64,000 nucleotides of DNA from Branchiostoma floridae (lineage: Eukaryota > Chordata > Leptocardii > Amphioxiformes > Branchiostomatidae), in the NCBI RefSeq assembly GCF_000003815.2, contig NC_049994.1, positions 15,170,659 to 15,234,658 of the forward strand, in the 5' to 3' direction. Each line of letters starts with the position of its first letter. Positions within the stretch are counted from its first letter, which is position 1. Positions 28,289-54,161 of this stretch are shown here, in pieces. A program made the translations under genes and the position numbers. The notes beneath the pieces were generated by a model. The model was given only the letters and a program-made list of their open reading frames with translations, was not told the origin of the DNA and did not search any database.

Positions 28289-28396
28289 GACGGATCTCAG
28301 AAGTGAAGGCTAAGATCGACAGGCTGACATTGCGGGTTGCACACACCCGGGAACATACCTTGTCACAGAGACTTCCGGCCTTCACACAGCCACATG
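28289..28396 (+). CDS. Gene 4 helical exon
   Basis: A 108-bp exon, phase 1-1, acceptor tttactag/GACGGATC, donor ccacatg/GTATGA. It encodes RISEVKAKIDRLTLRVAHTR then SQRLPAFTQPH, nearly the same as the minus-strand exon of gene 1. Confidence 0.78.
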
Positions 28397-30067
28397 GTAT
28401 GATCGATTCATCCTCCTACGAAGGAACATCCAACAGCCAAACCGCCTGTCTGGATGTACCTGCTTTCTCAACCGTCACTCTTAGTTCCTGACCGCCCTGC
28501 TTATGAATATTAATGAGCTTACCTTTATATATGCGAGACCCATTTTGAAAACAGAAAGGCCTATTCTCTGAATGGCTGACAGCTGGTTTGGGGGGGGGGG
28601 GGCGTCCACAGGAACTAAGAGTGACGGTTGAAAGAGCAGGGTACATCCAGACAGGCGGTTTGGCTGTTGGATGTCCCTGCGTAGGAGGATGGATGGATTA
28701 TTCAGTGACATTTTACATTTCGTGTTTGTATTCATGGGAGGGAAACATGGAATTGTTTTTGCCCCGCTCCCTGCTTTTCTTCCCCAAACAAATGAGATCA
28801 ATGACCTGGTCCACAAGGCTGTCATCTTGATTACTGGAAAAGTAGCAGTCACTCTGTAGTGTTTGATTATAATTTCTGTTGAGATTTCTCTCTCCTGCAC
28901 CCGTATCTATTGTTTATCGTATCATGTATTATGTACTTTCTTGTTAACAAATATAGATAAACAAATCTCAGTTTCAGTTACTACAACCCTACCTGCAGCT
29001 GCGTCTTTAGCTGCAGGTTTGTGGCCCTTGAACTCACGTGCACAGCATGCAGCATCAGACATAACAGGAAACGGAAACGACGGGACAGCAACAGGGACCC
29101 AGTTAGCCACAGGTCCGTATGGCGACGCCGACGGAGCTTTCCTGTTTTCTGGAACTGCAGATTCCTACATTGACATTCCCAACAATGGCAAGTTGGATGT
29201 GCGCTACTCCTTCACCATGCTGGCACACATCTATCCTACCGGACGGGCTGGACCGATCTTCAGCTACGGCGGGAATACGAACGACTGGAACTGGGTACTG
29301 CAGTTGCACTTTTGGCAGCATACTCCACGAAACCTGCAGATGCGGTAAGTTTACTTACCAGATACAAATCGAGCCGTTACAATTATCCCTTCTCATTCCA
29401 CTCCATGCTTATAACCATCTTCATTAAACACACTTATCCCTTGCTGACACTTTCTAATGATCGGACGGTCAGTCCCAAGCAAAAATTGTGCAAGAACATA
29501 TTTATTGATCACAGGATTGTTGGGAATGATCTTGAAAAAAACTTCATGACAGGAGCTTCCAGTCTACTCTCCGTTATTTTTTTTCTTATGTTCATCGTTG
29601 TCCGGAGACCATTGCCGTCATGGCAATAAAGTATTGTTAGTTTTGTTTTTCTGAATTCAGTTCGATTTCTTATCATCGTCATTGAATTGAATGGCATTAT
29701 CCCTGTCTGTTGTAGGCCGGCAAGCAGAGATGGGTACTTATCACCTGACATCCAGGCGAACGTGGTGCAACAGAACGCTTGGAACTACGTGGGTACAAGC
29801 TACGACAACGAAACAGGGAAGGGATCCATCTGGAACAACGGGAAACTGGCACGTGAACTACACATCGGAGTTGCCGACGTTGCAAGTCTGAACCCTGTCC
29901 GGGTGGGGGCGAATGCCGAAAATTCTCGGCGCTTCGCGGGGCGTATCTCCTGCCTGCAGCTGTACAACTACGCCATGACTCAAGAACAGATTGTCGCAGC
30001 TCGCGATGCGTGTAAAGATTCAGATTCAGCTTTATTCCTGGATGACTTGGCATGTATATACACATGA
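28289..30067 (+). CDS. Gene 4: LamG-domain lectin gene, broken at both ends (gene span)
   Basis: Plus-strand exons 28289-28396 (helix), 28978-29344 and 29716-30017 (LamG halves) are phase-compatible with open frames. They match gene 5 exon for exon. No signal-peptide exon could be found upstream, and the donor that should follow 30017 is replaced by the end of a LINE (agattcagattc instead of aggtgagt). Read-through adds a few residues and stops at 30067. WSC-like exons that follow LamG in gene 5 are absent. It is probably a pseudogene or a truncated gene, though the remaining frames have no stops. Confidence 0.65.
28409..28691. mobile_element. hAT-type MITE copy B (283 bp)
   Basis: Long inverted ends beginning CATCCTCCTACG, with an 8-bp duplication GATCGATT / GATGGATT (one mismatch) at 28401-28408 and 28692-28699. 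Gene 5 has the empty site (tatgattggttcttcagtg at about 46217). Confidence 0.87.
28978..29344 (+). CDS. Gene 4 LamG domain, first half
   Basis: A 367-bp exon, phase 1 to 2, acceptor cagtttcag/TTACTACA, donor atgcg/GTAAGT. It encodes AAGLWPLN, DITGNGNDGTATGTQL, GAFLFSGTADSYIDIPNNG and PIFSYGG, typical of a ConA-like LamG fold. Confidence 0.85.
29716..30017 (+). CDS. Gene 4 LamG domain, second half; donor destroyed
   Basis: A 302-bp exon, same length as in gene 5, phase 2 to 1, acceptor tctgttgtag/GCCGGC. It encodes NAWNYVGTSYDNETGKGSIW, LHIGVADVA and CLQLYNYAMTQEQI. Base 30018 is the first base of the LINE end, so GT is gone. Confidence 0.82.
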
Positions 30068-32160: not shown

Positions 32161-32640
32161 GAAGCATTTCGATGGCTTTTGTTGGTGAATATTACAGAGG
32201 TTTTTCCAGTTTCACGACCCTTGCTTTATTTCCGCCGACGTTTCAGTGACAGTTTGCCTAACCTGAGAACTAACCTCCGTAGCGACCGCTGGCACAATCT
32301 TTTCTTGAAAAGGTACACAGTGGTCGCTACGGAGAACGGCAGCTTCCTCAGGGCAATTCTGACTGGGTCACATTGCACTGCAACTTGGTGTCGCTGCTTA
32401 CAGATGCGGTTTCAAACGTTTTTACAATCTCACATATACGGTGATCGTTTATTGGTATTTGTATGACAAAATAATGATCCAGTCTCTATGCCTTCCTCAG
32501 GGTAGCCGGATGGAGGCCGCCAACACCAACCGCTGCTCCTCTCCACCGCTTCAGTGGGAGCAGTGGTAATAATCACGTTCACTGTTACGTTTACGCATGT
32601 GCAGTAACAGGCATTGTGGGTAATAAATGAAGTAGGCCCC
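32161..32640. other. Repeat-derived stretch with a hairpin, no gene
   Basis: 'ccgtagcgaccgctgg' near 32277 and 'cagtggtcgctacgg' near 32320 form a stem of about 15 bp. 'gacgtttcagtgacag' and 'cttcctcagggcaattctgactggg' resemble other repeats in the window (4375-4405). No protein match. Confidence 0.45.
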
Positions 32641-36239: not shown

Positions 36240-36820
36240 TCAAACCTTATAATCTAGTTTCCGGGCTGGCATCTTAAAAAGGTGATAGTCACCCTTATAT
36301 GCCAACCCTTCCACAAAAGTGGTAAAACTAAATGAATAAATATTCATGTAGATACTTAAACGTGTAAACACGAGTTTCACGTTCATGAGGCCCATTTCGC
36401 CTACCAAAACGACGTTTTTCATGCTGAACGTCGTCGACAATTGAAGCATCGTAGACATACAGTATTTCAACAACGAAGTCTTCACTTCCACCCGTACACC
36501 ATTTACTGGGGTCTGACCTGTAATCTTGTAGACTTGATTTGCCATACTTCCGCCTTCGCCGTCCGCTGCACAGGCTGTGGAAGAGCCGTACTTGTTGAAG
36601 GTGTTGAGCCCACTAGCAGATCCAGCACACCAGCCGCCATCCTGTACAGCAAACACGGTAAAACCACGAGAGAGTGCTACCTGGTAACATTTCTCTATGG
36701 GGTTTTGACGGTAAGCGTAGATGCCATCTAGGCGTGCATCTGTTCCCTCGAGGGTCGGAATGGCGCGATCAAGTTCGTCCCTCCAGCAACCCAGGCTGAT
36801 GTACTCACGGCTTTCGCTTC
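36240..36820 (-). CDS. Gene 3 WSC-like module 2 (likely terminal exon)
   Basis: The acceptor is tcctatacag/GAAGCG. The module (36518-36820, 303 bp) holds GCWRDELDRAIPTLEG, KCYQVA, FAVQDGGWC and TAC. Read-through gives QTPVNGVRVEVKTSLLKY and stays open to 36240, longer than in the paralogues. The extra tail has no domain and may not be translated. Confidence 0.72.
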
Positions 36821-39800
36821 CTGTATAGGAAAAATTAGTAGTTCAGTACTCATCTTCACTGGAAGGTTATGATTGTATACTATACCATTATATTCTCATA
36901 TGCAGAGACATACAACAGCGCCAGCAAACCGCCTATTGTCTGTACTCTTCTATCTCTAGAGTATCACCATCAGTTCCTGATCGCCCTGCTTATAGATATC
37001 TCTTTTGGAAACTGAAAGGCCTATTCTATGATTGGCTGACAGCTGGTTTGTGGCGACGCCCACAGGAACTGATGGTGACGGTTGAGATAGCAGAGTACAG
37101 ACAAGAGGCGGTTTGCTGGCGCCGTTGGATGTCTCTGCGCAGGAGAATGGTACTATACATGCTATGGTCGTACTTTTTGAGTGATAGCTGGCTCTTGAGG
37201 CAGAGAGTAAGTAATAGGGGTTTGGTCCCCAAGCTTTTTTTTTTTAAACCAAAGGACCTGGTTGAGTTTCAGAATTTGAGAGAGAATAACTCAAGGAGGG
37301 GTCTACGAATGGTCGTAGATGTTGGTATGTAGATAGCTTACGTGATGCTTGACATTATTAGATGGTATTATTATGGAAATCGCAATCTAATCTGCCTAAT
37401 TAATGTGCAAATTTTATGAACCGGGACGTTCCATGATAGTACTATTCAAACATGTGACAGATGAACTGGGAAGGAGAAGAACATTAAGATAGATGGGAAA
37501 TTATGCAAATGAAGACCTACTTTGCATAATCAACGACAAAATGCTCCATAATGGGAACTTCATAATTGATACCTCATTGAACATGCAGAAAATAACCTGA
37601 GATGAGCATAAACAGTTACATAATTTTGATAACGGAAACTTCACTTTCTGACCTGTAATCTTGTAGACCTCGTTTGCATAAGAACCTCCTTCTCCGTCCG
37701 CTGCACAGGATGTGGAAGGTCCGTACCTGTTGAAGGTGTTGAGCCCATCAGCAGACCCAGCACACCAACCGCCTGCCTGTATAGCAAACACGGGGAAACC
37801 ACGAGAACTGGCTACCTGGTAACACTTCTCTATGGGGTTTTGACGAGTAGGGTAGCTGCCATCTAGACGTGAATTTGTCCCCTCCAGAGTTGGAATGGCG
37901 CGGGTGTATGTGTCCCTCCAGCAACCCAGGCCGATGTACTTGCTCACTGTGTGAGGAAGGAAGTATTTCGGTCATTGCCGACTGGATTTTCTACTCTTGT
38001 TTTTTCATCAGTTAGGTTGTATTGGTGGTCTTGATGTAAAGACCGTGCATGTTATCATTTCATTTCCATCAATGTGAATTTAAACAATTTTAAAACGAAG
38101 TGCGCTACAATCAAGTGGTCGTTCGTACTTCTAACGTCCTATGGGCAATCGAAACGTATGAATCAGAGAGGAATTCAACGATACCGTGTGGACAAAAGAT
38201 GGCGTTTTACGTCTGAATTACGATATCGCTAAAAAAACACATTCCTCATTCAAGCGTCTTGCGGACCCCAGACGCCTAGCATTAAGCGCCTACTGTGTCT
38301 AGTTCAGGTTGACACAAAAAAGCGTCTGCTAATACATGCAATATATTTTGAATATATCGATTCAGCACGTTTACAATCATGGCTCACTAATTTGTACCTC
38401 ATCATTTTACTCTTTGCTGTCAGGATCATCGAAAGTTCCTATGTCCTTACCTGTTTCAGCGAAGACCTCGACCTCGCAAATTTGCAGATTGTCGGACCGG
38501 CCCATCACCTGAATTAGATGACAACAACACATTAGTAATGACACAGTCACTGCACCGGCCAACATTAACTCTCTACACTCATACAGAGAGCAAGAATGTG
38601 TTGGCTAGGTACTTTTATTCACTTAATGATCACCACGCAACAAGACCTGAAGGTCATTTCAAGGTGTGACCCGAAGGCCACTCCAAGGTTACGGGATGCA
38701 TTGTATCTGTAACAGCATCTCTTTTACTGTGTTATAAACATCATGATTGAGACCAGTTCAATTGCCCACTAAGAGTGAGGACTAAATGCAGAAATGTTCG
38801 CGGTGGATTAATGTTCGCGGTTTTCGCGGTGCCCACTTCACCGCGTACTTAAATCCACCGCGAACATTTTTCTATTATGGTATTAGACTACGGTGTTACC
38901 GCGAACTTAAAAACACTGCGAAAATTTTTTTTTTCCGCTACCGCGAAATTAAATCCCCGCGAACTTAAATGCATTTACAATAACTGACTCAATAGGCGAA
39001 GCAGGGGTTACGAATGCCGAGGCTGAGACTTCCCAGGGTGGTACTGAACTGGTGTCCAGAGGAAGAAAAAGGAGGGGGGGGGGCAAGCCATAACATGAAG
39101 GAGAACTGTGGAGCGCGACCATGCTGAGATGTGATGCACCTGGAGGGGGTGCAACAGACAGCTGTAGACAGAAAAGTGTGGAGAACCCGCCTCAGCGAAC
39201 GCTGATAAATAAAGTGAAGTGAAGTGAAGTGAAGTGAAGGGAAGTATGTGGCGACGATGATGATGATATTTACCTGAATAGACACATAACGGCCGGACAT
39301 CGGCTGGTCACAGTACACCACAATGGTTGCTCCATTGGCTGGACGTGCCGTGTAAGTCCCCCCACACTGGTCATTCTGGGCGAAGTTCTCGTTCGGGCCA
39401 ACTCGCACCTGGAAGTTTCGCAGTCGCTCTCCTACAAATACAATCCATTGAGAAGTCAATGAATGTGGGACATCCAATCCTTAGCTTTGTGTCTGTTTAA
39501 CGTAAACGTAAAGGCTTTCTAGTGTTTTATTATTATTATTATCATTATCATTATTATTATCATTATTAAGAATGTGGCGTAACGGTAGGATGTTTGTCTT
39601 TAAGTCCAGAGGTCCTGGATTTCAGTTCCCTTACATACTCTGGCGTTTTGCCCTAGGGACAGCCACTTAAGATGAAAATCCTTACTTCACTCGGGTATTC
39701 AACCTAGCTTCGGTTGGGGACGTCCCTTGGACATCACGTTAAATTGAGGTACGTGTTTGACGACGTAAGCTAAACTTTCCCCTAAACACGTAAAAGCAAC

Positions 39801-42800
39801 CATAACCACTCCTATCGAAAAGAGTATGGGCCCTTCCCGGTGTGGGTGGATCAACTAAGTTACATTTAGTACAGATACGGTGTGTTGCGCCATAAGGTGG
39901 TTTTACGGTTAAACAAACTAACAAACAAACAAACAAACAAACAAAAACTAACCACAGCAGTCGCCCCTGTTTAGAACGCTGACACGGTTAACCGTGTAGT
40001 GACCCCCACCACCCAGGTCCACCTTCCACCACGGCTGATACACCCGGAGGGTATGAAGGCACTGGTTGTACCAGGAAACGAACGTCCCTCTGAGGCCGTC
40101 CACAGCCTTTTCCGGTCCCCAATATGAAGGATGAGTGCTTGCTGTTGCTGTCTTGCCCTGGGCGACGTTACTTTCTGCAAGAAAACACAGATGGGGAGTA
40201 CATTTTAGGTAACGTAGTAGTGGACAAACTCAAGCCAATCGTAAGTACTTTTGCCACATCTTCGGAAATTTGTTCAGGGTTCATGCGTGTTCCCACCTGT
40301 GATACAGCGGTATGACGCTTCCAAGTACTTCTGCACACCCCTGCAGGGGTCGCCGAAAACGGAGGCAGTGGCCCGCACGGCGCACTGCTGTTCGCCCTGG
40401 CAGGCGCTCTGCACCACGGACAGGCTGCTGGCTGCCCGGCAGTTGGTGCGACAGGTGGAACATCGGCAGTCGTGGTTGGTCGACGTACGGCCGTAGTTGG
40501 CGCCCAAGATGAGGAGCGTCTTTCCCTCTCCACACGACAGCTGCATGGTGCCACTCTCACCACAGGCGTAGGCTGTTTCTGTACCAATGTTTTAGAATCA
40601 ATGTTGTCAGTATAAGGGCGCGGTCACATAAGGTACGCTCCCACCGCACTTGTGTCAAGCTTGCATCACTGCGGGGTTCGTTCACTGCGTCACTGTTGTG
40701 CTATTTTCTCCGATCATTTATAATTTAGATATGGCGTAATACGTAAAAGTATGACTTAGAAGACGACAAAATACATCAAAAGAAATGAAATTTCGTTCTT
40801 TATTTCTGAAATTCGTTGAGTATCTTTCGAACCCCGCGGTGACGCAAGCTTGACACAAGTGCGGTGGGAGCGCACCTATAGGTCGTGCGATCGTCGTACG
40901 ATTTTAATGCCATAGAATTTTCAAGCAGGCCGTGACAGAACCAACCACCGACATCCAAGACAGCATTTTGTGTACCATGACAGTTGAACTTTGAAGGAGA
41001 GGAACATTTTTGTCCTGCAAAATGCCCGAACCTAGCATTGGACGACGATCGCACGACCTATGTGACCACGCCCTAACATCTCAACGCATGATTGCGCAAG
41101 GTGTATATAGCATAATTTCCGTATCAAAATATCGTATCTAAAAACGTACCTTAAAATAGAAAAAATAGGTCAACGATATACGTATTTTCCGGTTAAAAAG
41201 ATATCGCTGTACGTATATGACATCGTCTCGGAATAAAAATATTGCCATACTCCATTGTACGCAGCAAAATTCACTTTGCAAAGATATCGTTGTAAGTACC
41301 TTAAATCATCATTATCAGGTATACGATATCGCAATTCAGACGATTTTTTTCATACGGTATCGTTCTGGCATGTACATTTAATGTCTTCATCTTTTCTGAT
41401 AACAAAGCGATCTTTTGTATGTTCCAGTAATGTACCTTTGTTTCTGTAGTCGACACAGTCCGAACAGTAACAGTGGGCCGCAGTGTTGCCGCACCAGTTT
41501 CCCGGGGAGCAGCATGGGTAAAACCTGTCAGGGTCGCATTCAGCAGGGTTACCGTCTTCAGCAGGGTAGCCCTGCCCGCAACGCAGGTCATCACGCCACT
41601 TCTTAGGAGCTATCAGTGAAAAATGCAGTAAGTAACGATTAGTCACATATGAACACGCAATTGACAACCATGGCTAGAGACCCTTTGCTGCTGTTTCCTT
41701 AGAATTTTGCTTTTGTTCTCAGTTTAGTTCATTCTTTGTTCATCGTTCTCCACAGATAATGATTTATTTGTACCCTGACATATTTCAAGGGGTTGTGAAA
41801 TTTGATAACTTAGTCAAGAAACTTATATTTTAGGCAGTTTGTCTGTGTATCCCTATCGCAACATCGTGCACGTTTGTAGGCTTGTTTATGGTATGCATCT
41901 TAATGTGATATTTTGACACGGAAATTGTAAAGATGAAGTAAGAGACATTAGGAATCGTTCATAAGGCCCCTTTCGTCCTACCGAAACGGTGTCTGTGCGA
42001 TTGCCACGTTACCATATGCAGGCCGTACTTACACGTGCTGCGTAAGTACGGTTTCCTTACTCACTCGCATTGGCTGTCCGGGGCACGCGCGTTGCCCGTA
42101 CTGGCACGTACGGGGGGCTAATTCGCAGACCAAAGGCACACAAAGTTTTACCTGCAGGTAAAGTTCTCCAAAATCCGTCGGATTCCCTACGAGTTCATAC
42201 GGTACTTAGCACCTACGGATCCCAAAAGATTGCCCACGTTACTGGCTTGCCCACGTTTTGACGTAGACANNNNNNNNNNNNNNNNNNNNNNNNNNNNNNN
42301 NNNNNNNNNNNNNNNNNNNNNNNNNNNNNNNNNNNNNNNNNNNNNNNNNNNNNNNNNNNNNNNNNNNNNNNNNNNNNNNNNNNNNNNNNNNNNNNNNNNN
42401 NNNNNNNNNNNNNNNNNNNNNNNNNNNNNNNNNNNNNNNNNNNNNNNNNNNNNNNNNNNNNNNNNNNNNNNNNNNNNNNNNNNNNNNNNNNNNNNNNNNN
42501 NNNNNNNNNNNGCAAATACGTGCCAAAACGTGGGCAATCTTTTGGGATCCGTAAGTAGTAAGTACCGCCTCCGTACGAACTCGAAGGGAATCTGGCGGAT
42601 TTTGGAGCGCGCAGACACGCCGTAGAACTTTACGTGCAGGCAAAACTTTGTGTGCCACCGGGCTGCGGATTCGCCCCCGTACGTGCCAGTACGGGCAACG
42701 TGACTGCCCTGTACAGCCTGAACGTTTTCAAAAATACGTAGCGGACGTAGCCTCCTAACAAAAGGTACGGAGAAATTGCACATACGGCGGGTTGTGCCCT

Positions 42801-43910
42801 TTCCTGTTTTCTGTCACCTGCATGCAGACGCTACAGGAAAAATGCTTGCCCTCAGCAAGGAGGTTACAAAGCAGACCTTCAATAAATCGACAAAAAAGTC
42901 TTTAAACTAGAAAACAAGTAATGTTTACCTTCACATGGTATAACTGTAGCCAAACAAACTACGCTGTTTATTCTTAGTAGTCTATACTTAAACACATTCA
43001 TATACATGTATAGGATGTCCAGCCCCTCTTGTTCTGTCCTAATAAACTTGCTACATAATGTGATTAAACACCACAGGGTGCCTGCTTCATTACCAGTAAC
43101 CATGGTGACCGCCGTCTGGTCTAGACTATTGACCGTATTTGTTTCGAGAAAAAACGGAGCATAAAGGTAAACATAAAGAAAAAGGGACATGACACTCAGG
43201 GTTCTTACCTTGCTGCGGGGTAAAGACGAATCTCTGTGACAAGGAGTCTTCCCGGGTGCGCGCAACCTGCTCCATCGCCCCGTCAATCTTAGCCTTCACC
43301 TCTAACATCAGACCTAGTGAATGTCGTAAAGAATAATGTTAGAATCTTCCTATAAAAATCTAAGCGAAATTTAAGTTCATGATGGAAATTCTTTTGCTAG
43401 GAGATAAACATAGCGGTGAACACTTTTTGAAGGCTTGAAAATTGTGTATAGGAGGTAAACAGTTATCATCGAGCTAGAGAGTTCCATAGTTTGGCAGTCT
43501 GAGGAAAGAACATTGCACGAAAAGGCAGATTTCCGCTTTGTAGACGATAATTCCCCTCACGACACGGGAGGTGTGCAACAGTGGGGACGCGTGGACTCTT
43601 CGCGTGTCCTATTGTGCACACATGTTTTCAACATTGCGCACGCGGGAACAGGCAGTCCGTGGAAACCCGTGCCCACGGTGAGGACACGTCAGGTTTTACC
43701 TTCGTGCACAAAGTTGGGAACTTGTTGAAATCTGCCTTTTCGAGCAGTAGAACATTGTGCATATAAAGAACTTCGTTAACCGCTAAGGACGACCTACTGA
43801 CTTTTCAACTGGGCCGCTTCCTGCTTAGTTAATCCGTACACATTCGGGCTTGACCACATCACCGCAAAGTACAGGAGAACGAAGGCCTTGCTGTAGGTCC
43901 AGTTTCCCAT
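36240..43910 (-). CDS. Lectin gene 3: secreted hevein-like / SUEL / F-type / 2x WSC-like protein (gene span)
   Basis: Nine exons on the minus strand: 43802-43910 signal peptide, 43209-43313 helix, 41436-41609 hevein-like, 40297-40578 SUEL, 39953-40174 + 39274-39431 + 38451-38508 F-type lectin, 37653-37946 and 36240-36820 WSC-like. All junctions are GT/AG and in phase; the total is 1983 nt, 661 codons with stop. It has the plan of gene 2 plus one extra Cys-rich exon. It lies head-to-head with gene 5 (first ATG at 45455). The read-through C-terminal tail is longer than in the other genes, so either a later splice or a different end is possible. Confidence 0.82.
36886..37150. mobile_element. hAT-type MITE copy C (265 bp)
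   Basis: Inverted ends around CTCMTATGCAGAGACATAC and a perfect 8-bp duplication TACTATAC at 36878-36885 and 37151-37158. The other WSC introns read 'ttctctacatgctatggtcg' without the insert. It is the most diverged of the three copies. Confidence 0.88.
37160..37620 (-). repeat. Repeated WSC-intron block, gene 3 copy
   Basis: Same landmarks and order as 4625-5090. Confidence 0.7.
37653..37946 (-). CDS. Gene 3 WSC-like module 1
   Basis: Exon of 294 bp, phase 1-1, acceptor cctcacacag/TGAGCAAG, donor attacag/GTCAG. It begins VSKYIGLGCWRDTYTRAIP and keeps KCYQVA, GGWCAG and TSC. Confidence 0.87.
38451..38508 (-). CDS. Gene 3 F-type lectin exon 3
   Basis: A 58-bp exon, phase 0 to 1, encoding VMGRSDNLQICEVEVFAET, with donor acag/GTAAGG. 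Confidence 0.87.
38783..38981. mobile_element. MITE with TTCGCGG / CCGCGAA repeats
   Basis: Built of inverted phrases such as 'gttcgcggtggatt' and 'aatccaccgcgaac', ending 'aaatgcatttaca'. It is related to the element at 57484-57683. It lies in the intron between F-type exons 2 and 3 of gene 3. Confidence 0.75.
39274..39431 (-). CDS. Gene 3 F-type lectin exon 2
   Basis: A 158-bp exon, phase 1 to 0. It encodes GERLRNFQVRVGPNENFAQN to GRYVSIQ, with QCGGT in place of QCGET. Confidence 0.88.
39570..39950 (+). mobile_element. SINE, full copy with A/B boxes and AACA tail
   Basis: Head 'gtggcgtaacggtaggatg' and 'cctggatttcagttccc', core 'aacctagcttcggttgggg' and tail (AAAC)n ending at the donor of F-type exon 1. 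It is orthologous in position to 22965-23640 and 9985-10366. Confidence 0.8.
39953..40174 (-). CDS. Gene 3 F-type lectin exon 1
   Basis: A 222-bp exon, phase 1-1, acceptor tcttgcag/AAAGTAAC, donor tgctgtg/GTTAGT. It has NVAQGKTATASTHPSYWG, CLHT, WWKVDLGG and VLNRGDCC, so the fucose-site residues are kept. Confidence 0.9.
40297..40578 (-). CDS. Gene 3 SUEL exon
   Basis: A 282-bp exon, phase 1-1, acceptor ggtacag/AAACAGCC, donor atcacag/GTGGGA. It contains AYACGESGTMQLSC, ANYGRTS and FGDPCRGVQKYL before SYRC. Confidence 0.92.
40616..41073. mobile_element. MITE, PIF/Harbinger type, copy in gene 3 (458 bp)
   Basis: TAA at 40613-40615 and 41074-41076, ends GGGCGCGGTCACATA and inverted partner. 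Same family and same intron position as 24791-25255. Confidence 0.9.
41436..41609 (-). CDS. Gene 3 hevein-like Cys-rich exon
   Basis: A 174-bp exon, phase 1-1, acceptor cactgatag/CTCCTAAG, donor acaaag/GTACAT. It encodes PKKWRDDLRCGQGYPAEDG, then ECDPDRFYPCCSPGNWCG, HCYC and DCVDYR. It has eight cysteines in a C..C..CC..C..C.C..C pattern, including the CCSxxxWCG core of chitin-binding hevein domains (ChtBD1). The aromatic sugar-stacking residues fit only loosely, so chitin binding is inferred. Genes 1 and 2 have no counterpart. Confidence 0.75.
42072..42722. mobile_element. Large foldback element around an N gap
   Basis: About 200 bp on the left ('gttgcccgtactggcacgta' at about 42089-42108) is the inverted copy of about 200 bp on the right ('acgtgccagtacgggcaac' at about 42682-42700), with continuous pairing through 'caaaagattgcccacgtt'. 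The N gap 42270-42511 is the loop. It lies in the gene 3 intron between the helical and hevein-like exons. Confidence 0.85.
42270..42511. other. Assembly gap (242 N)
   Basis: Run of N at the centre of the foldback element. Confidence 0.99.
43209..43313 (-). CDS. Gene 3 helical (putative coiled-coil) exon
   Basis: A 105-bp exon, phase 1-1, acceptor attcactag/GTCTGATG, donor cagcaag/GTAAGA. It encodes LMLEVKAKIDGAMEQVARTR then SLSQRF, almost identical to gene 2. Confidence 0.82.
43802..43910 (-). CDS. Gene 3 first coding exon: signal peptide
   Basis: From ATG (43910) to donor ttgaaaa/GTCAGT. It encodes MGNWTYSKAFVLLYFAVMW, SSPNVYG and LTKQEAAQLK. The upstream ATG of genes 1 and 2 is mutated to ACG here, supporting MGNW as the real start. 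Confidence 0.87.
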
Positions 43911-45454
43911 GTTGACCGTTCTTGGGCTAAAAATAAGAAAGATAACGTTAACCACACAATCAAGGCAATTTACAGGCTATTACTACAAAGTTTACAGAAT
44001 GTAGGTTCTATTCCTAACATTCCTGGCTAGACCTTGCGTAGCATAGGAAAGGAATGCAACTTTCTTCACTCCGCTCAGGTACCTGACTTCGGTTAGGGAG
44101 GTAAAATTTGATAGGCGGTGGAAGGAGAGGGATGGGACAGTATGGTCCACTGCCCTTTTGACCCTAAAAAGCATTTGGGAATCGAACTTTTAACGTTTAC
44201 CTATCAATTCAAGGATGACTTTCCAGGACTTACCTTGAGGGCTTCTCTACACGGACGGTCGGAGTGCTGACGAACCCCTACTAACTACATCTGACGTCTT
44301 ATCTTTGTGCAACATACAATCCTTCTGTCTCATACAATGTATGTAACAACGTTTAAAACGCCATTACTTATCTGTTGTAACTATATAACGTGAACAAAGG
44401 GGCGTTAATGTCGGCAAGGCTTTCAGCTTAAAGCAACAATGCACTCATTAGACGTTGATTCAATGGAAATTAGGTGCCTCTGAGGAGAGCCACATATTTC
44501 TGTTAATGAGGTTCAATGCCAAGCAACCATTTGTTAAGGCATCGTAAACACATCCTAAATTCAATTTGTGTGGACGTGTTGTATAATGGAAGGGTTTTTA
44601 AGCCTATAGTTCAAACGCCCTGAGTTGAAAGTCTGACGTTATACTGCTCTTGGTGAAGACTACATAATTTCCACCTTAACAAATTTATAAAGATTGTCGA
44701 ACCCCTGCATGACTATCTTATGTCGGGTCTTCTTGCAACGTACAATGTATGTAGCAACGTTTAAAACGTCATTACAAATTCATAAGGACTGTTTATTGAG
44801 AGTGGGAGAACTAGTGCCACATGTGGAGACACCAGATACCATTCTTTTCTTTTTTGCAGTCAACCTTACGCTAAAAGCCCTTGTATTCACGTAATGCAGT
44901 TACAACAGATTAGTAATGTTTGCTATAGACTTTAGCCTTTACATAGACTTTAAACGTTGTTTCATCCGTTACACTATAAGACCAGACCTTCAGTTGGCCA
45001 TACAGTTGGTCGGGTGCGAGAAGTCCTCGTAGACAAGGTAGGTCCTAAAACTTTAATAAGTCATCTTTAATTGGTTAGGTCAAAGTTCAAGGTCCCAAAG
45101 CCTTTTCGAGGTCATAAGGGCAGTGAACTATAGTACCATGAGCCCATCCCTCTCCTTCCACCGCCTTTACCTCCCCAACCGAAGTCAGGTACACATTTAA
45201 ACCATTTTACAGATTGGGGAACGTTACTTTCCTACGGACGCTATGGACTGCCAGGAATGTTAGAGATAGAATCTATACGTTACATTATGTGAACTTGGTA
45301 GTAAAATCCAATACATAAATCTCACTGATTCATATGGTACAGGTAAAACCAAACCACTTCAAAAGATACAACACCTTCGGTAAGCTATCATCGTTAACAA
45401 AGCCGCCTAACTGTCAACGTTGTATTCCTTATTCTTAGCCCAAGAACGGCCAAC
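43911..45454. promoter_or_regulatory. Divergent intergenic region shared by genes 3 and 5
   Basis: 1544 bp between two outward-facing signal-peptide ATGs, so it must hold both promoters. Its left half is collinear with the head of gene 2. It contains SINE-like repeats (44000-44200 plus; 45080-45290 minus) and a relic terminal exon (44860-44894). I could not pick TATA or initiator elements with confidence. Confidence 0.6.
44860..44894 (+). pseudogene. Relic of a C-type lectin gene terminal exon
   Basis: 'cttttcttttttgcag' then TCAACCTTACGC... reads VNLTLKALVFT and stop, and matches the splice site and start of the exon at 54073-54161 (VDLNLKTKYGAIS). Similarity extends upstream through 'gccacatg.ggagaca'. 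It stands alone between genes 3 and 5, with no attached lectin exon. Confidence 0.55.
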
Positions 45455-45563
45455 ATGGGAAACTGGACCTACAGCAAGGCCTTCGTTCTCCTGTACTTTG
45501 CGGTGATGTGGCCAAGCCCGAATGTGTACGGTATTACTAAGCAGGAAGCGGCGCAGTTGAAAA
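45455..45563 (+). CDS. Gene 5 first coding exon: signal peptide
   Basis: From ATG to donor ttgaaaa/GTCAGT, 109 nt. It encodes MGNWTYSKAFVLLYFAVMW, PSPNVYG and ITKQEAAQLK. It is nearly identical to the minus-strand gene 3 exon 1.5 kb away. Confidence 0.88.
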
Positions 45564-48500
45564 GTCAGTAGGTCTACCCTAACGGTTCTTATTTTGTGCT
45601 TGAAGGCATGACTATCTCTTATTCTCGTCAGCTTTGTTCTTGTCAGTAGGTCCACCTTAAGTTAGCATTTAACAAAGTTCTTTCTACACAATTATTTATA
45701 CCTAGCCTACGTTCCGACAACTTTCTGTTACCACCAATATTAACCTAGTTGTAAATTCGGCACCAAGTATTCTCCAGTCTGGGGCCAGAGTTTTTGCTTC
45801 GTTCAGGTTAACCCCAAGTTGGTCGAGGGCCATTTGTAGCATATGTCTATAGAGCTACAATTGTAATAATCATTAGTCTTCGCCACTTTCTGTTTCCTTT
45901 GTCCTGTTAACAGTACAGTGCATCCCTGTTTCAGCGTGTCTTTCCACAGGCATTCTAAAGACATGTCCTGTGTTCATTCCACTTTCCTCTGTGATGGTGG
46001 TACTCTGTTTTTCCCCTTTCCTTTTATAAACTTCTTCATGCTGTTTGCAATAAACTTATTATGGTGTGTAAGACAATTCTAAGTTTAGTCTTTACAACAT
46101 CTCCTTGCCAGGACGGATCTCAGTAGTAAAGGCTAAGATTGACCAGGCGATATTGCGGATTGCACGCATCCGGGAACACTCCTTGTCACAGAGACTTGCC
46201 TTCACCCTGCCGCAAGGTATGATTGGTTCTTCAGTGACATTTTACATTTCGTGTTTACAATCATGTGAGAGGAACATAGAATTGTTTTTGCTCGGTTTCC
46301 TGCTCTTCTTCCACAAACAAAGAAGGCTGTGCCAGGAAGGCTGTCACCTTGGTCACCGGTAAAGTAGCAGACTCCCTGTAGTGGAGACCTGCACGTCAAA
46401 ATCTACCTTTAAAACCAAATGCAGGGCTTGGCTAGCCTGACCTCTGACCACCCAATGAAAATGACAACTTGATAGTATTTATTTTGTTATTATCATTATT
46501 GTTTTCTTTAGTTTCGTACCATTATTTTCATTCATCATTTGTATTGATATCATCATCACTAGCAGCATATATTGTTATGATTAGTATTATTGTTTACATC
46601 AGTTTCATTACCATTGTTATTTAATCATTTCATTTATTGCTGTCTATTTATGTTTGCCTATGTTTGTGATGAATATGTTTAATTTCTTTTTATGTAACAC
46701 GCAGGGCTCCACTGAAAAGCAGTGCAAGAGCACTGAGCTTGGACCACCCTGGATAAAGATTACAGAAATAAAATAAATAAAATATAGTGTTTGATTATAA
46801 TTTCTGTTGAGATTTTTCTATCCTGCACCCGTAACTATTGCATTATCGTATCATGTATTATGCAGCTTCTTGTTGTGCAAAATAGATAAATGAACATTCA
46901 AATAAATCTCAGTTTCAGCTACTACAGCCCTACCTGCAGCTGCGACTGACGCGGTAGGTTTGTGGCCCTTGAACGCACGGTACGGAGCATCAGACATAAC
47001 AGGAAACGGAAACGACGGGACAGCAACGGGGACCCAGTTAGCCACAGGTCCGTATGGTGACGCAAACGGGGCCTTCCTGTTCTCTGGAACTGCAAATTCC
47101 TACATCGACATTCCCAACAATGGCAAGTTGGATGTGCGCTACTCCTTCACCATACTGGCACACGTCTATCCTACCGGAGAGGCTGGACCGATCTTCGACT
47201 ACGTCGGGACCAACCCCAATATCTGGCACTGGGCACTGCACTTTTGGCAGTTGTTACCAGAGGAACTGCAGCTGCGGTACGTTTTAGTTAGTTTCTACCA
47301 GACCCCCGCCTGTCCGAATAGAGGACTTTGCCAAAGTTAGGAATAAAAGCCTTGTAGGAGTTAATTGGCCTAGGAGTATTGGACGGCCGGTACTCCTAGG
47401 CTATCTAAGTCCTATGGTGTGTTTTTTGCCTTATTTGGCCAATTTCTACTATTTTTCCAGCGACCTGTGGAGCCTAGTAGAGGTTACAATTAAGTGTCTA
47501 CCGGTACGCGGTCCCGATTTCCCGATTTTGTTTGCCGAATTCTACGATCCCTGAACTCCCTTAAGGCCCCTTCACACGAGAAGTGGAATCAGCCGGAATG
47601 CCGTCAGTATGGCTATTCTTTGTATATTTCTGAGTATTCTAGAAATTCTCAATGCGTTCCAGATATTTCTGCCCATTCTTGGGGCCGTCCCGAATGTTTT
47701 TGACATGCTCAAAACTTTCGAGGTGCATTTGAAGTGGAGAAACATCGAACGTCATTGAAAGTGCATTCTAACTGATGTATGACCGAATTCTACGGCATTC
47801 CAACATTATTCGAAACATTCTTATCTCATTCGATGGAGAACCGAAACAGCAAGCCACTTAAAATCTTGCAAGAATGTGGCCGAAAGAAAATCTGGAATTG
47901 AGCGAAAATGTCTAAAATGCACTACAAATACCCAGGAATATACAAAGAATAGTTATTCTGACGGCATTTCGGCTCAGTCTTCTTATGTGAAGGGGATATT
48001 AGGTCCATTTGGAATTCCCACCCGAATGTGGCAAGAATTTCGCAAATTCTACATTCCGGATGGTTCTGCTTGATTCCTGCTAATTCTGTTTCAGCGTGAA
48101 GAGGCCCTATTGGGTAGGCCTGTTGAAGGCTGGGTACGTTTAGTGACCAGACGAATTACCGTTCTCTATCCACTCCCTGTTTATAATCATCTTCATCAAA
48201 CATACTTATCCCCCATTGCTCTACACTGGTGAGACAGTTCCCAAAAATATTTGTGCAAGAACTCGAAAAAAACATTACAACAACAAACAAGAGTCTGAAA
48301 ACTCAAACCTGCATGAATTTTTGTTTTTGTGATGGTGCGTACGGTGTGTTGTGGGGTTGATATGGTTTGACGTTTGGCAAGATTATTCTATCATTGTTCT
48401 TATATATCTACCCATGGTAAACGGTGAGATCCAAAATTACAGCTTTCTATTGACCTCACCATTTCCTTTTTATTTCCTATTGTTACACCTGCACATATCC

Positions 48501-51500
48501 CTAATGTATATATAATGGTTCATTCCATACAGAGGTGACAGGGATGGTCACAGTTACTCTTTCTACTAGTTGTGGATCCGTGTAGCTACGCGATTGGCTT
48601 CATATCCCGACTGTGTATATAGTTATTCACCCCGCACACAGTGGTATTCATGTATCAATTACTGGGACCACTCTATTCCTATCAAAAAGGGGTGTACATA
48701 TTTTTTTTTAAACGGACCACAAAACTGCAGCAAACTTCTATATTCTGATATACGAAATTCTCTGTACACAAGGCTATCTTATACACAAGAGTTTATCTGG
48801 ATGGACCTGAAGTGCAAATTCAAATACATCATGACATGTGACAATCCCTGCATGACAGATATAGGAAAATATATCAAAGAAGGTTTAGACATTAGAAATT
48901 CCTCCAATGATTGTAAAAGCCTCCAACAACTGTAAGAAATTTATCCCATACTACAACTTCTGTATTAGTTAGATAAGCGTTAAGTTATAGAACTGTAGTT
49001 ATGTAGATGCCATACTTTGTACCCCGTACAATTGTTGTGCAATAAAACTATATATATATATATATATATAATGCGCGCTAAAGCACAATGGCTAATATCT
49101 ATCCCCATAGTAAATGTGATTGCAATCCATCCAGAGGTTCTAAAGATATTTGTCCGGAATCACAAACTCCAAATCGTGATCCCTACCAAAAACAGTGCCT
49201 GCTTTTTTAAGCAGGTACAAACAACAACAAAATTCTGAAATTCAGGTTGATTTCTTTGAATTGCTTGTCGAGTGTAAAGATACATTTTTACTTAGATTCA
49301 TATCGATTTCTTATCCTCATGGTTAAATTGAATGGTGTTATCCCTGTCTGTTGCAGACCGGTAGGCAGAGATGGATATTTTTCACCTTTCGTAATTGCAA
49401 GAGTGCTGCAACTGAACTCGTGGAACTACGTGGGCTGCACCTACGACAACGAAACAGGAATGGCATCCATCTGGGGCAACGGGGAACTGGCACGTGAACT
49501 ACACATCGGAGTTGCCGAAGTTGCAAGTCTGCACCCTGTACGCGTGGGGGCGAAGAACGGAGATGATCGGTGCTTCGCGGGGTGTATCGCCTGCCTACAG
49601 CTGTACGACTACGCCATGACTCAAGAACAGATTGCCGCAGCGCGCGATGTGTGTAAAGGTGAGTTGAACCCTATTCTGTATTCAGACCGGGCTTTGTAGG
49701 TCAATCTGGGACGGGGGGGGGGGGGCGTAGTTATTTTGAAGGCCCGTCCCTTCGAACTCCTGTAAATCTTAAACAACTAAATTTCAGAAAATGATGTACA
49801 CATAAAAGTTTACGAAATTTGACGCTGTTATGATATTATATGACGTAAATATGCATATCTAGAATACCAGTTGGGCTTTTGGATTTTAAAAAATACATTT
49901 TTTCAGCAAATAATCGCAAAAGACAATGGACATAGACTAAAAATGTTCATTTACACAATTTTTTATGAAAAATGCTAGGTAGGTACAAATGGTAAGGGAC
50001 AATAATCTAGTTATTCTTGATCTGGTCATATGGTCCGCCATCTTGGATTTTGACCAATGACGTCATCAAATTAGCATAATTTATTCATCTTCATTTATGA
50101 AAGATATTCTACATAACACAAGATTTGTTTATGTAAGAAAATAACAGTAATGTAGCAAATAAGCGTGAAAAATACTAGCCTCCTTGGTTATCAAGCGAAA
50201 GTATTGAGCCATCGGTCACTACGAGGAAAAATACATCGTTTATTAAAGCGTAATTGGCGATTTTCGTCTCAAAAGCCTGGCAACAAATGGTTTCCATGGC
50301 AACACAAAAAAAGAAAATTTTCCAAAATTTAAGAACTTGTTCAACTAAATCTTAGCAAATCTCACCAAATATTTGGTGGCTCTAGCGTAAGTCGTTCTGG
50401 CTTTATGCGAGAGCAAGAGTGGAAAAATCCATTTGGCAATGACCGAACTGCTCCTTTCCTCACACAGGAAGCAAAAGCCGTGAGTACATCAGCCTGGGTT
50501 GCTGGAGGGACACACGTTCCCGCGCCATTCCTACACTCGAGGGGACAGATGCACGCCTAGATGGCAGCTCCGGTTCCCGTCAAAACCCCATAGAGAAGTG
50601 TTACCAGGTAGCACGTTCTCGCGGTTTCCCCGTGTTTGCTGTGCAGTATGGTGGGGAGTGTTTCGGGTCTGCTGACGGGCTCAACACCTTCAACTTGTAC
50701 GGATCCTCCACAGCTTGTCTAGCGGACGGCGAAGGCGGGGCTTGGGCAAACGAGGTCTACAAGATTACAGGTCAGACTCTAGTAACTTGTGTACGAGTGG
50801 ATCTGTAGTTTCCGTTATCAAAATAGTGTAACTGTGTGTCTATTTTACCATTTATGCTCACCTCAGGTTATTTTCTGCATGTTCAATTAGGTATTAATTA
50901 TGAATTTCCCGCCATCTACCATTATGGAATTATAGCATTTTGTCATTGATTATGCAAAGTAGGTCTACTAATTCATTTGCATAATTTGTCATCTATATTA
51001 ATGGTTCTTTTCTTTCTCAGTTACATATGTCACATGTTTGAATAGTCATATCATGGAACGGGATGGGTTTATAAAATTCTCTCATTGATCATGCACATCA
51101 AATTATGATTTTCATGCACATCAAATTATGATTTACATCTAACCATCTAATGATGTCAAGCATCACACGGGTTATTCTCTCTCAAAATATAAAATGATAA
51201 AACTAAACGGGCTCCTGCGGTTAAAAAACCGCTTGGGGGCCAAACCCCTACTACTTACTCTCTGCCCAAAGAGCTAGCTATCACTCAAAAAGTACGACCA
51301 TAGCATGTACAACACATAAGCATAATCTTCTAAGTACCGAAATACCCCCTTCCTGACACAGGAAGCGAAAGCCGTGAGTACATCAGCCTGGGTTGCTGGA
51401 GGGACACATCTGCCCGCGCCATTCCGACACTCGAGGGGACAGATGCACGGCTAGACGGCAGCCCCCTTTCCCGTGAAAACCCCATAGAGAAGTGTTACCA

Positions 51501-51720
51501 GGTAGCACTCTATCGTGGTTTCCCAGTGTTTGCTGTGCAGTATGGTGGGGAGTGTTTCGGGTCTGCTGATGGGCTCAACACCTTCAACAGGTACGGACCT
51601 TCCACATCCTGTTGGGCGGGCGGCGAAGGCGGGACTTGGGCAAACGATGTCTACAAGATTACAGGTCAGACTCTAGTAAATGGCGTACAGATGGAAGTGA
51701 CGTTTCCGTTATCACAATAA
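45455..51720 (+). CDS. Gene 5: secreted LamG / 2x WSC-like protein (gene span)
   Basis: Six exons on the plus strand: 45455-45563 signal peptide, 46112-46216 helix, 46919-47276 + 49357-49658 LamG, 50468-50770 and 51362-51720 WSC-like. All GT/AG and phases agree, and 1536 nt give 512 codons with stop. The N-terminal cassette is the same as in the oppositely oriented lectin genes, while the sugar-binding head is a ConA-like LamG domain instead of SUEL and F-type. The C-type lectin exon downstream (52911) is out of phase with the last WSC-like exon, so I end the gene at 51720; a joined transcript via an unseen exon remains possible. Confidence 0.8.
46112..46216 (+). CDS. Gene 5 helical exon
   Basis: A 105-bp exon, phase 1-1, acceptor ccttgccag/GACGGATC, donor ccgcaag/GTATGA. 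It encodes RISVVKAKIDQAILRIARIR then SLSQRLAFTLPQ. Confidence 0.82.
46919..47276 (+). CDS. Gene 5 LamG domain, first half
   Basis: A 358-bp exon, phase 1 to 2, acceptor cagtttcag/CTACTACA, donor ctgcg/GTACGT. It encodes AVGLWPLNARYGASDITGNG, GAFLFSGTANSYIDIPNNG and FTILAHVYPTGEAGPIF. Confidence 0.88.
47277..49356 (+). other. Gene 5 intron inside the LamG domain
   Basis: A 2.1-kb intron holding the MITE at 47564-48108, a TA microsatellite (49048-49071) and an AT-rich 121-codon frame at 48570-48935 without recognised domain, signal or splice context, judged accidental. Confidence 0.65.
47564..48108. mobile_element. MITE related to 6321-7415
   Basis: Left end aggccccttcacacgagaag and right end gcgtgaagaggccct are inverted. 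The interior shares the CCGGAATG and GAATTC-rich phrases of the element at 6321. TTA precedes the left end; the right target duplication is unclear. Confidence 0.75.
49357..49658 (+). CDS. Gene 5 LamG domain, second half
   Basis: A 302-bp exon, phase 2 to 1, acceptor tctgttgcag/ACCGGT, donor gtaaag/GTGAGT. It encodes NSWNYVGCTYDNETGMASIW, LHIGVAEVA and CLQLYDYAMTQEQIAAARDV. Confidence 0.88.
49659..50467 (+). other. Gene 5 intron with dispersed repeat
   Basis: About 49860-50110 belongs to the CCATCTTGGATTTTGACC repeat (other copies at 8540-8870 and 22860-22945). No exon seen. Confidence 0.6.
50468..50770 (+). CDS. Gene 5 WSC-like module 1
   Basis: A 303-bp exon, phase 1-1, acceptor cctcacacag/GAAGC, donor attacag/GTCAGA. 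It holds GCWRDTRSRAIPTLEG, KCYQVA, FAVQYGGECFG and TAC. It is the plus-strand counterpart of the minus-strand modules. Confidence 0.88.
50820..51330 (+). repeat. Repeated WSC-intron block, inverted with gene 5
   Basis: Reverse complement of the block at 4625-5090, in the same position and orientation relative to its exon. Confidence 0.7.
51362..51720 (+). CDS. Gene 5 WSC-like module 2 (likely terminal exon)
   Basis: The acceptor is tcctgacacag/GAAGCG. The 303-bp module (51362-51664) holds GCWRDTSARAIPTLEG, KCYQVA, GECFG and TSC, and read-through adds QTLVNGVQMEVTFPLSQ and a stop at 51720. Confidence 0.8.
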
Positions 51721-52842: not shown

Positions 52843-54161
52843 ATGAGTATGAAAATAGTCTGGTATTTCTTCTTTTACGACTTATCTATAATAACGTTTT
52901 TTGACTGCAGTGTGACCGGCTTGTGTTACCGTGCCTACAACAGAGAAAATAACTACGACGAGGCTTTGGCGACCTGCCAAGCTGACGGCGGCACTCTGGC
53001 TATGCCTCGCGACAACACAACCAACGACTTTCTTATCGAGTTGAAGAACGCTACGAACAGGAATGCCTATTTCTTTTTTGGACTTGACCGTAGGGATGGC
53101 TCGTGGAATTACGTAGATGGCGGAGAACTGTCGTACACCGACTGGGGTGAAGGGCAGCCGAATAATTATGGTGGATACAAGGAGGAATGTGGAACGTACT
53201 GGCCTGCAACACGAGGAAATAAATGGAACGATGGGCGCTGTTGGTCAAGGAATAGTTTTATCTGTGAAGTTGGTAAGTCAAGGTCATGATTTTAGTGTTT
53301 CTCCCGGCCTCGTAGTGAGGGCACTGACTAATAAAGTCATAAGCGAATGTAAAATCAGGTTATTTTCACTCGAGATTCGTCACGACCTTATATTTTTCCC
53401 AAGAGCACATTCATAAGAAAGTGTAGCTTGTATTAGAAGTGAAACTAGTTCTATAATAAAAATACACGTATGTGCTTTTTGACTGGCCTACACATGTTTA
53501 CACATTGAAGGTCTTGTTACTTGATACCTATTATGTAGTAAGAAGTTTATTTGCAAGTTCATACCCGAGGGCTGATACATGCAAGTACATAGAAGATATA
53601 CAAGTGACAATGGACAGTTATGAACAATATTCTACTCTAATACTATATAGTGTTGGCTATTTCTAAGCAGGTTGGGTTTGACTTCTGTTTTGGAAGCAGA
53701 GGGAGAGAAAAAGCCCCACATTTTCTAAGATTTGTGGGTTCTGCGATGTCAAGAGAAAATTGGCTTTCTGTTCGTCTTTGAATGTGGGGAAATTGGGATA
53801 TGTCTTCTCTAAACAAAGTGACTCTTTTGGTTTGGTTGGATGAACACTTGTTTCGCCTTCCACTGTTTAGCTGTACAGTATTTACATTTTTTTTTCACAC
53901 ACTGGTAATCTCGTCTTCCACTGCTTCAGATGTACAATATTTAAAATTCTTTCACAAACTGGTAATCTCTTTTCACTATTGTGTAAAAAAGTAATTAGCA
54001 CAAATGCTTAACACGTGGGGCAACTGGAGCCACATGCGGAGACAACCTATACTGTCCTTTTCTTCTTTGCAGTCGACCTTAACCTGAAGACGAAGTATGG
54101 CGCCATTTCAGTTAATTTAGTTACCAACCTGTGTTCCCATGTTATCTTTGTTCACAGCTAA
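52843..54161 (+). CDS. C-type lectin gene or gene 3' part (span)
   Basis: Two parts join in phase: the CTLD exon 52911-53272 and a terminal exon 54073-54161, followed by AATAAA at 54516. The start is uncertain. An in-frame ATG at 52843 would give MSMKIVWYFFFYDLSIITFF, a weakly signal-like N terminus, making this a single-domain secreted lectin. Alternatively the strong acceptor ttttttgactgcag at 52910 joins it to an upstream exon ending in phase 2. The last WSC-like exon of gene 5 ends in phase 1, and joining it would create an immediate stop. Confidence 0.6.
52911..53272 (+). CDS. C-type lectin-like domain exon
   Basis: A 362-bp exon, donor gaagttg/GTAAGT. It encodes a full CTLD: LCYRAYN, ATCQADGGTLAMPRD, FFFGLDRRDGSWNYVDGG, WGEGQPNNYGG, EECGTYWP, KWNDGRCW and FICEV. 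The sugar-site triplet is QPN (between mannose-type EPN and galactose-type QPD) and the WND motif is present, so calcium-dependent sugar binding is plausible but its specificity cannot be assigned. Confidence 0.9.
54073..54161 (+). CDS. C-type lectin gene, terminal exon
   Basis: Acceptor ttcttctttgcag/TCGACC, phase 1 start matching the CTLD donor. It encodes VDLNLKTKYGAISVNL and ends ...VHS stop at 54161. A relic copy at 44860 supports it as a real exon. Confidence 0.65.

Follow-up and report, generated by a model that had tools for sequence, protein, structure and literature searches.

The 64,000-nucleotide (nt) stretch of Branchiostoma floridae DNA analysed here (the window; C16:15170659-15234658, where C14, C16 and C19 are contig labels of the assembly) contains five genes of one kind, and the subject of this work is the beginning that they share, a signal-peptide exon followed by a helix exon. 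Genes 1, 2 and 3 lie on the minus strand and run down from 13206, 26792 and 43910, respectively, while genes 4 and 5 lie on the plus strand and run up from 28289 and 45455. In the spliced reading, genes 1, 2 and 3 comprised 10, 8 and 9 exons, with AG/GT at all junctions and no stop. Their exon order was signal peptide, helix, SUEL (preceded in gene 3 alone by a chitin-binding-like exon), F-type lectin (three exons) and then four, two and two WSC-type exons, respectively. In gene 5, a signal-peptide exon and a helix exon precede two exons of LamG and a pair of WSC exons, with the frame open through the second WSC exon. Rfam, searched at gathering thresholds, gave no matches in the whole window.

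Gene 3 (minus strand) starts with exon 1 at 43802..43910, found by tblastn, which encodes a signal peptide (recognised by eye as signal-peptide-like) and the start of the helix, and which ends in a phase-1 donor, GTCAGT. Exon 2 (43209..43313), phase 1 at both ends, encodes an amphipathic helix and was placed by splice reading, alignment and the heptad test described below. It is followed by a chitin-binding-like exon (41436..41609; tblastn and splice reading), which matched the PGRP3 structures 4zxm (E 1.2e-14) and 4z8i (3e-14) and is a relative of the N-terminal part of PGRP3; tblastn at E up to 1 did not find this exon in genes 1 and 2. The SUEL lectin exon (40297..40578; splice reading) matched Pfam PF02140 at 1e-19, with 71.1 bits against a cut-off of 31.4. 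The F-type lectin is encoded by exons a (39953..40174; Pfam, under the name F5_F8_type_C), b (39274..39431; splice reading) and c (38451..38508; splice reading). When joined, these three exons matched FBP32 (PDB 3cqo, 7.6e-34) and 1k12 (7e-21), labelled 'LECTIN' and presumably the eel lectin. Two further exons (37653..37946 and 36518..36820) were recognised by splice reading and by tblastn similarity to the WSC exons of gene 5. Spliced gene 3 gave no Pfam WSC row at E up to 0.1, and the fourth such exon of gene 1 scored 16.6 bits for PF01822, below the cut-off of 27.8; because similarity was seen by tblastn and the Pfam cut-off was not reached, we call these exons of genes 1 and 3 WSC-type.

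Gene 5 (plus strand) has its signal-peptide exon, which also carries the helix start, at 45455..45563 (tblastn, splice reading and alignment) and its amphipathic helix exon, again phase 1 at both ends, at 46112..46216 (alignment). LamG exons A (46919..47276) and B (49357..49658) matched PF13385 in the spliced product at 8.3e-15, with 55.7 bits against a cut-off of 27.6; exon A alone gave no row, and exon B matched at 1.6e-10. The first WSC exon (50468..50770) scored 26.8 bits alone, just below the PF01822 cut-off, and 36.3 bits in the spliced product; the second (51362..51664) was supported by tblastn and by Pfam on the spliced product. Pfam gave no collagen-like family, the mark of a collectin, for the spliced product of gene 3 or of gene 5 (E up to 0.1). 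A preliminary description of this locus had assigned different heads to the two genes, SUEL/F-type and LamG, and the PF02140 and F-type matches on one side and the Laminin_G_3 matches on the other confirm this. Three features go beyond that description: the WSC-type exons common to both genes, a block in intron 2 present in all five genes (described below) and the extra chitin-binding-like exon of gene 3.

The start codons of genes 3 and 5 lie head to head, 1,544 base pairs (bp) apart, and their first exons, whose ends fall exactly where given before, were identical at 104 of 109 nt, in agreement with the 1.5 kb spacing and the nearly identical first exons noted before. Exon 2 was identical at 84 of 108 nt, a count that includes three preceding bases. 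An inverted repeat of 175 nt (43778-43952 and 45413-45587, 91%) covers exon 1, while outside about -40 to +125 of the ATG ungapped similarity fell approximately to chance, and intron 1 gave no alignment above background (213/442). Within the intergenic region between the start codons (43911..45454), the segments 43980-44221 and 45058-45304 are inverted relatives (68%). The corresponding exons 1 and 2 were located by tblastn and alignment at 26684..26792 and 26076..26180 in gene 2 (minus strand). In gene 1 (minus strand), exon 1 lies at 13098..13206 (tblastn, alignment and genome search, without a divergent cassette partner found) and exon 2 at 12314..12421. From the assembled sequence, we rejected an allelic or assembly artefact as the source of the inverted pair: synonymous divergence (dS) between genes 2 and 3 was 0.08 to 0.36 over the exons compared, and genes 3 and 5 carry different heads, which a single allele assembled twice would not.

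Exon 1 was less diverged than exon 2 in all six gene pairs, with Fisher p < 0.05 in five of them. Together with the sharp island of identity around exon 1, this would be expected if gene conversion kept exon 1 alike between neighbours with old, fixed heads. The exon 2 of gene 1 also groups with that of gene 4 despite its SUEL head: five informative sites joined genes 1 and 4, two joined genes 1 and 5 and one joined genes 4 and 5, and a three-base insertion is common to gene 1 (SUEL head) and gene 4 (LamG head). However, when exons 1 and 2 of genes 3 and 5 were compared, the difference in divergence lay mainly at nonsynonymous sites (p 0.0005; synonymous p 0.48), and synonymous divergence did not differ significantly between exon 1 and the WSC exons either (p 0.38). 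Since synonymous sites are not significantly less diverged, the likeness of exon 1 between genes 3 and 5 comes mostly from constraint on the peptide, and strong recent conversion of exon 1, of which synonymous sites show no sign, was rejected. Conversion alone would also hardly carry the module to other contigs, where it was found as described below, and we regard this explanation as unlikely.

The exon-2 peptides showed a consistent heptad pattern. Their heptad score was reached by 2 to 74 of 20,000 shuffles for the four window sequences and by 0 to 63 of 5,000 shuffles for a wider set of nine, two of them from the window, and the best register was identical in every sequence tested. Across 16 distinct peptides, positions a and d were more hydrophobic (85/112 residues) than the others (59/255). 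For the exon 2 peptide of gene 5, AlphaFold2 predicted residues 2-31 to be helical, with a mean predicted local distance difference test score (pLDDT) of 86.1 and a predicted template modelling score (pTM) of 0.46. A hydrophobic heptad repeat within a helix, as expected of a coiled coil, was thereby found, and the similar helical second exons of the preliminary description hold on the nucleotide identity, the helix predicted for gene 5 and heptad scores above those of shuffles.

We then searched the exon-1 peptide in the same assembly at E up to 0.001. Among 23 scored candidates, 19 were matches, spread over three contigs. On C16, seven lie near 15.1-15.2 Mb, seven at 2.06-2.49 Mb and one each near 17.1 and 17.7 Mb; C14 has two and C19 has one. 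Fifteen of these lie outside the window and are given L-numbers. L023 carries an in-frame stop, and L014 has an in-frame ATG three codons upstream. Exon 2 gave 18 matches at E up to 1 (weakest 0.024). By position, 16 of these follow an exon 1 of like orientation; the remaining two are gene 4 and a copy at C16:2454803.

For each outside copy, heads were read in one 10-kb stretch from tblastn with window exons and from open frames, and ten frames of L011, L015, L016 and L017 were run against Pfam. SUEL plus F-type heads followed seven of the 19 copies (genes 1, 2 and 3, L009, L010, L014 and L018), LamG heads followed four (gene 5, L013, L019 and L022), and LamG followed by SUEL was found in two (L012 and L021). 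The copy on C19 (L011) precedes C-type lectin and Sushi domains, L015 and L017 on C14 precede Ephrin_rec_like and ApeC domains, with an additional C-type lectin, EGF and chitin-binding-like exon in L017, and L016 precedes GON and Link (Xlink) domains. The best Pfam values were 7e-24 for ApeC, 4.6e-21 for Xlink, 7.9e-20 for Lectin_C, 1.1e-14 for GON and 5.9e-12 for Sushi. Two copies, L020 (5,843 N in its stretch) and L023, received no head label. The start module thus precedes at least five kinds of head: SUEL/F-type, LamG, C-type lectin plus Sushi, ApeC, and GON plus Link. In all seven outside loci checked, exon 2 is in phase 1 and is followed by a phase-1 donor, which in L015 falls 14 bases short of where the peptide match ends. 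A candidate phase-1 acceptor is present at the first recognised head exon in each of the seven (L016 allows other phases too).

The likeness between copies extends beyond the coding exons. In a comparison covering 600 nt before the ATG, the upstream DNA of gene 5 was 79% identical over 619 aligned positions to that of the ApeC-headed L017 on C14, and 77% over 306 nt and 81% over 81 nt to that of L011 on C19. Intron 2 contains a block of ~92 nt that occurs once in each of the five window genes, at 43063..43155 in gene 3 (minus strand), 25648-25739 in gene 2, 11975-12067 in gene 1, 28776-28867 in gene 4 and 46301..46383 in gene 5 (plus strand). The gene 5 copy is the most diverged of the window and was reached via the gene 4 copy. 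Intron 2 of gene 4 aligned locally to those of genes 1-3 with scores of 64 to 87, where the highest of 200 shuffles per comparison reached 33. The scores of gene 5 were 44.5 to 46 against shuffled maxima of 33.5 to 37, and blastn joined its intron 2 to that of gene 1 (E 0.002). The block is 87% alike in genes 1 and 3, compared with 75% for exon 2, and one of its frames is open in genes 1-3; it may be an exon that escaped recognition or a regulatory element. Of the 15 outside loci, 11 have the block as well. Genes 3 and 5 become similar again ~45 nt upstream of the first WSC exon. As the intron-2 block is common to both and similarity resumes before WSC, the heads were probably swapped at points inside introns.

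A tree of the module (19 rows, of which two lack a head label and three consist of the exon-1 part alone; near-copies included; no outgroup) required six head changes where the minimum possible is four, and a number as low was obtained in 6 of 200 shuffles. Its well-supported branches forced a minimum of two changes for each of the SUEL/F-type, LamG and ApeC heads. Two sets of close copies were seen in the same tree. L009 and L010, near C16:17.1 and 17.7 Mb, are near-alike cassette genes with branch lengths of 0.007 and 0.010, in opposite orientation and 0.6 Mb apart, and may represent a recent duplication or two haplotypes retained in the assembly. The exon-1 parts of L019 and L020, ~0.32 Mb apart, had a branch length of 0, and a large N gap follows L020.

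Judged from the sequences, these observations are best explained, with fairly good probability, by a portable gene start consisting of upstream DNA, the signal-peptide exon and the helix exon, which would have spread by duplication and exon shuffling. In this model, the unit, whose upstream DNA probably bears a promoter and whose helix exon ends in phase 1, would have been copied in the genome, mostly on C16 and also on C14 and C19, and joined to varied phase-1 head exons. The products would be secreted pattern-recognition lectins, and their helix of roughly four heptads would gather chains into small coiled-coil oligomers, in which weak sugar sites might act together, by analogy with collectins and long pentraxins. 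With the copied start, a gene would gain expression and oligomer state together. Genes 3 and 5 would be a pair of these units, oppositely oriented and each preceded by a separate copy of the upstream DNA, and their divergent layout would be a by-product of inverted duplication. By default, homo-oligomers would be expected; mixing is possible, but nothing in these data points to it.

Genes 3 and 5 might instead be ordinary paralogues, arising by an inverted duplication after which one of the two copies had its middle exons replaced or lost, so that the start would reflect shared ancestry and the helix would be a linker. The start, the intron-2 block and the WSC-type exons do flank different heads on both sides, and dS was of the same order across exons (0.08 to 0.59), as such a history would predict. 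However, the duplication of one gene would not place the module in front of ApeC, GON/Link and C-type lectin heads on C14, C16 and C19, and the consistent heptad pattern also speaks against it. We consider this account improbable.

Several points weigh against the portable start. The intron-2 block was not found in four of the 15 outside loci examined (L011, L015, L017 and L020), and intron 2 of gene 5 gave no blastn hit to genes 2 and 3, with weak alignment scores of 44.5 and 46 against shuffled maxima of 37 and 36. Gene conversion between neighbours could also yield a module tree discordant with the heads. Positions a and d of the helix were no less variable than the others (mean entropy 0.88 versus 0.79), and the AlphaFold2 prediction covered one single chain, so it has no bearing on assembly. 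Gene models were deduced from sequence throughout; a complete splice chain was followed for genes 1, 2, 3 and 5, and elsewhere domains up to 10 kb downstream may belong to other genes. Many novel domain combinations in lancelets have been argued to be gene-prediction errors (PMC4967905), and this warning applies equally to the downstream head assignments made here.

We next considered the promoter. Five divergent arrangements within ~5 kb were found among the cassette copies, involving eight of the 19 exon-1 copies (genes 2, 3 and 5, L014, L020, L021, L022 and L023); the other 11 have no divergent cassette partner. Gene 3/gene 5 is the sole arrangement in which both modules were shown to be complete. 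L014 and L022, with SUEL and LamG heads, have 1,919 bp between their first exons, and L022 has exon 1 and the intron block without exon 2. L023 and L020 are 4,103 bp apart; the former has the stop noted above, and the latter is cut by an N gap in which its exon 2 may lie. L021 faces C16:2454803, where an exon 2 was found but no exon 1.

The fifth arrangement, gene 2/gene 4, had been described as a repeat of the gene 3/gene 5 layout, which our analysis did not bear out. The four strong exon-1 hits in the window are genes 1, 2, 3 and 5, and no plus-strand tblastn hit to exon 1 was obtained near 28 kb at E < 1. Gene 4 keeps exon 2 (28289..28396, plus strand; tblastn, alignment and genome search) and LamG exons A, from 28978, and B (28978..30013 together, plus strand; tblastn and splice check), and the donor after exon B is lost. 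A counterpart of the gene 5 segment 44697-46043 is missing from the interval between genes 2 and 4. At the site of the lost donor, directly downstream of gene 4, lies a reverse-transcriptase open reading frame on the minus strand (30180-32225; RVT_1, 1.6e-30). Without an exon 1 in gene 4, this pair does not repeat the layout.

The preliminary description inferred a common oligomerisation cassette under one bidirectional promoter, which would drive both genes and so yield co-expressed chains of unlike heads that could assemble into mixed-specificity complexes. Pairs under a bidirectional promoter have opposite-strand start sites less than ~1 kb apart. The 1,544 bp between genes 3 and 5 is the distance between ATGs rather than between start sites, and genes 2, 3 and 5 have a pyrimidine tract and AG before the ATG, with room for introns in the 5' untranslated region. 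No match to the one TATA-like pattern used was found in ~450 nt upstream of genes 1, 2, 3 and 5, and a bacterial-type promoter scan of the intergenic region is uninformative for animal DNA. The divergent start codons, the signal peptide and heptad register common to both genes and the second SUEL/LamG arrangement, L014/L022, are consistent with the proposal, and such a promoter has been proposed for the amphioxus pair SYCP1/CHIC (PMC5803294). However, the same upstream sequence precedes cassette genes on other contigs for which no divergent partner was found, and the ATGs of genes 3 and 5 lie 1.5 kb apart; a bidirectional promoter is therefore unsupported. One complete pair among five arrangements also speaks against a selected pair mechanism, although one is possible for gene 3/gene 5; a maintained paired design was rejected as the best reading, as four of the five arrangements have a broken or unproven partner. 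What stands of the earlier proposal, and extends further than it foresaw, is the shared, secreted and probably oligomerising start with swapped heads; its bidirectional design we consider very unlikely.

The helices themselves gave no indication of mixing. The preliminary description had suggested predicting helix pairing for homo- and heteromers, and a crude count of g-e' charges under an assumed parallel dimer (negative values attractive) gave -2 for gene 3 with itself, 0 for gene 3 with gene 5 and +2 for gene 5 with itself, with no attraction between the two helix types and no preference for mixing. Moreover, LamG and SUEL/F-type genes tend to different helix classes: helices with an LMLEV start (class L, assigned by eye) made up five of seven SUEL/F-type helices and none of six LamG helices (p 0.02, a value inflated by near-copies; the LamG count includes gene 4, and L022 has no helix). 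More broadly, the copied start might give all these genes the same expression control and a compatible helix, so that SUEL/F-type, LamG, C-type lectin, ApeC and GON/Link chains are produced by the same cells and form mixed particles. We think this unlikely; if true, mixed multi-head particles would be a combinatorial set of innate receptors built on one shared socket.

The portable start resembles several known systems in part. In precursors of frog skin peptides (the 'export exon') and in conotoxin superfamilies, one signal-peptide region precedes different products. Those precursors yield small peptides, whereas here a likely assembly helix and upstream DNA travel as well and the heads are large and multidomain. 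Long pentraxins such as PTX3 have N-terminal helices before a pentraxin-like head, and the LamG head of gene 5 matched PTX3 weakly (E 0.009 over 37 residues); unlike in PTX3, WSC exons follow here, and the helix module is common to other heads. Collectins and ficolins are secreted lectins joined by a common N-terminal stalk. Their stalk is collagen and carries one kind of head, whereas the module here is a short helix with at least five kinds. The paralogous collectins CL-L1 and CL-K1 are documented to form heteromers (PMC6079254). The preliminary statement that no system of this design has been described is accordingly too strong for mixed lectin complexes, and amphioxus F-type mosaics had also been noted already.

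F-type lectins work as multimers, and mosaics with C-type lectin and pentraxin domains have been described, with B. floridae named (PMC5712786). The head of gene 3, through its FBP32 match, resembles such mosaics (FBP32, the Xenopus pentraxin fusion and those of amphioxus), but a start shared across kinds of head is not described for them in the available part of that source. Lancelet ApeC proteins with fucolectin and C-type lectin domains have also been described (PMC12373286), and L015 and L017, with their ApeC domains, resemble them; the available part of that paper does not mention a shared start module. Amphioxus domain mosaics are already known and partly disputed (PMC4967905, PMC12373286), as are heteromeric lectins known (PMC6079254). 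We found no paper joining a WSC domain and an F-type lectin, and a search of titles and abstract beginnings, with most subscription papers outside its coverage, found no publication on a start shared across lectin heads. What is new is a gene beginning that can be reused, not a dedicated two-way promoter. Discussions of exon shuffling usually concern domains within a protein; here, a gene start with its upstream DNA appears to have been joined repeatedly to recognition heads, and some of the joins are still traceable in introns. This family would be a test case for secreted receptors that gain expression and oligomer state at once, and for unlike heads in one particle.

Within the F-type domains, the fucose-binding motif H-Xn-R-X-D-X4-(R/K) is given with n = 24 (PMC5712786). 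Genes 1, 2 and 3 have H and RGDCCGER with n = 26, 28 and 28, and the first FBP32 domain has n = 26 by eye. At the site of the cation motif h2DGx, where x is N, D or S (PMC5712786), genes 1 and 2 have AVDGS and gene 3 has AVDGL.

The LamG head is itself a widely spread module, as exon B gave 56 genome matches (E up to 0.001) distributed over many contigs. Minus-strand exons that share 91% identity with exon B of gene 5 lie at three positions, C16:14982187, 15074433 and 15157788. Two of these follow the first exons of L018 and gene 1 on their strand, at distances of ~18 kb and ~26 kb, respectively, and may form part of those genes. A C-type lectin exon 3' of gene 5 (52912..53268, plus strand; PF00059 1.3e-18), of uncertain membership, was left out of gene 5 because its acceptor takes phase 2 and not phase 1. 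Between this exon and the second WSC exon of gene 5, a fragment at 51993-52073 resembles the end of the second LamG exon and contains an in-frame stop; it is probably a remnant of an exon duplication.

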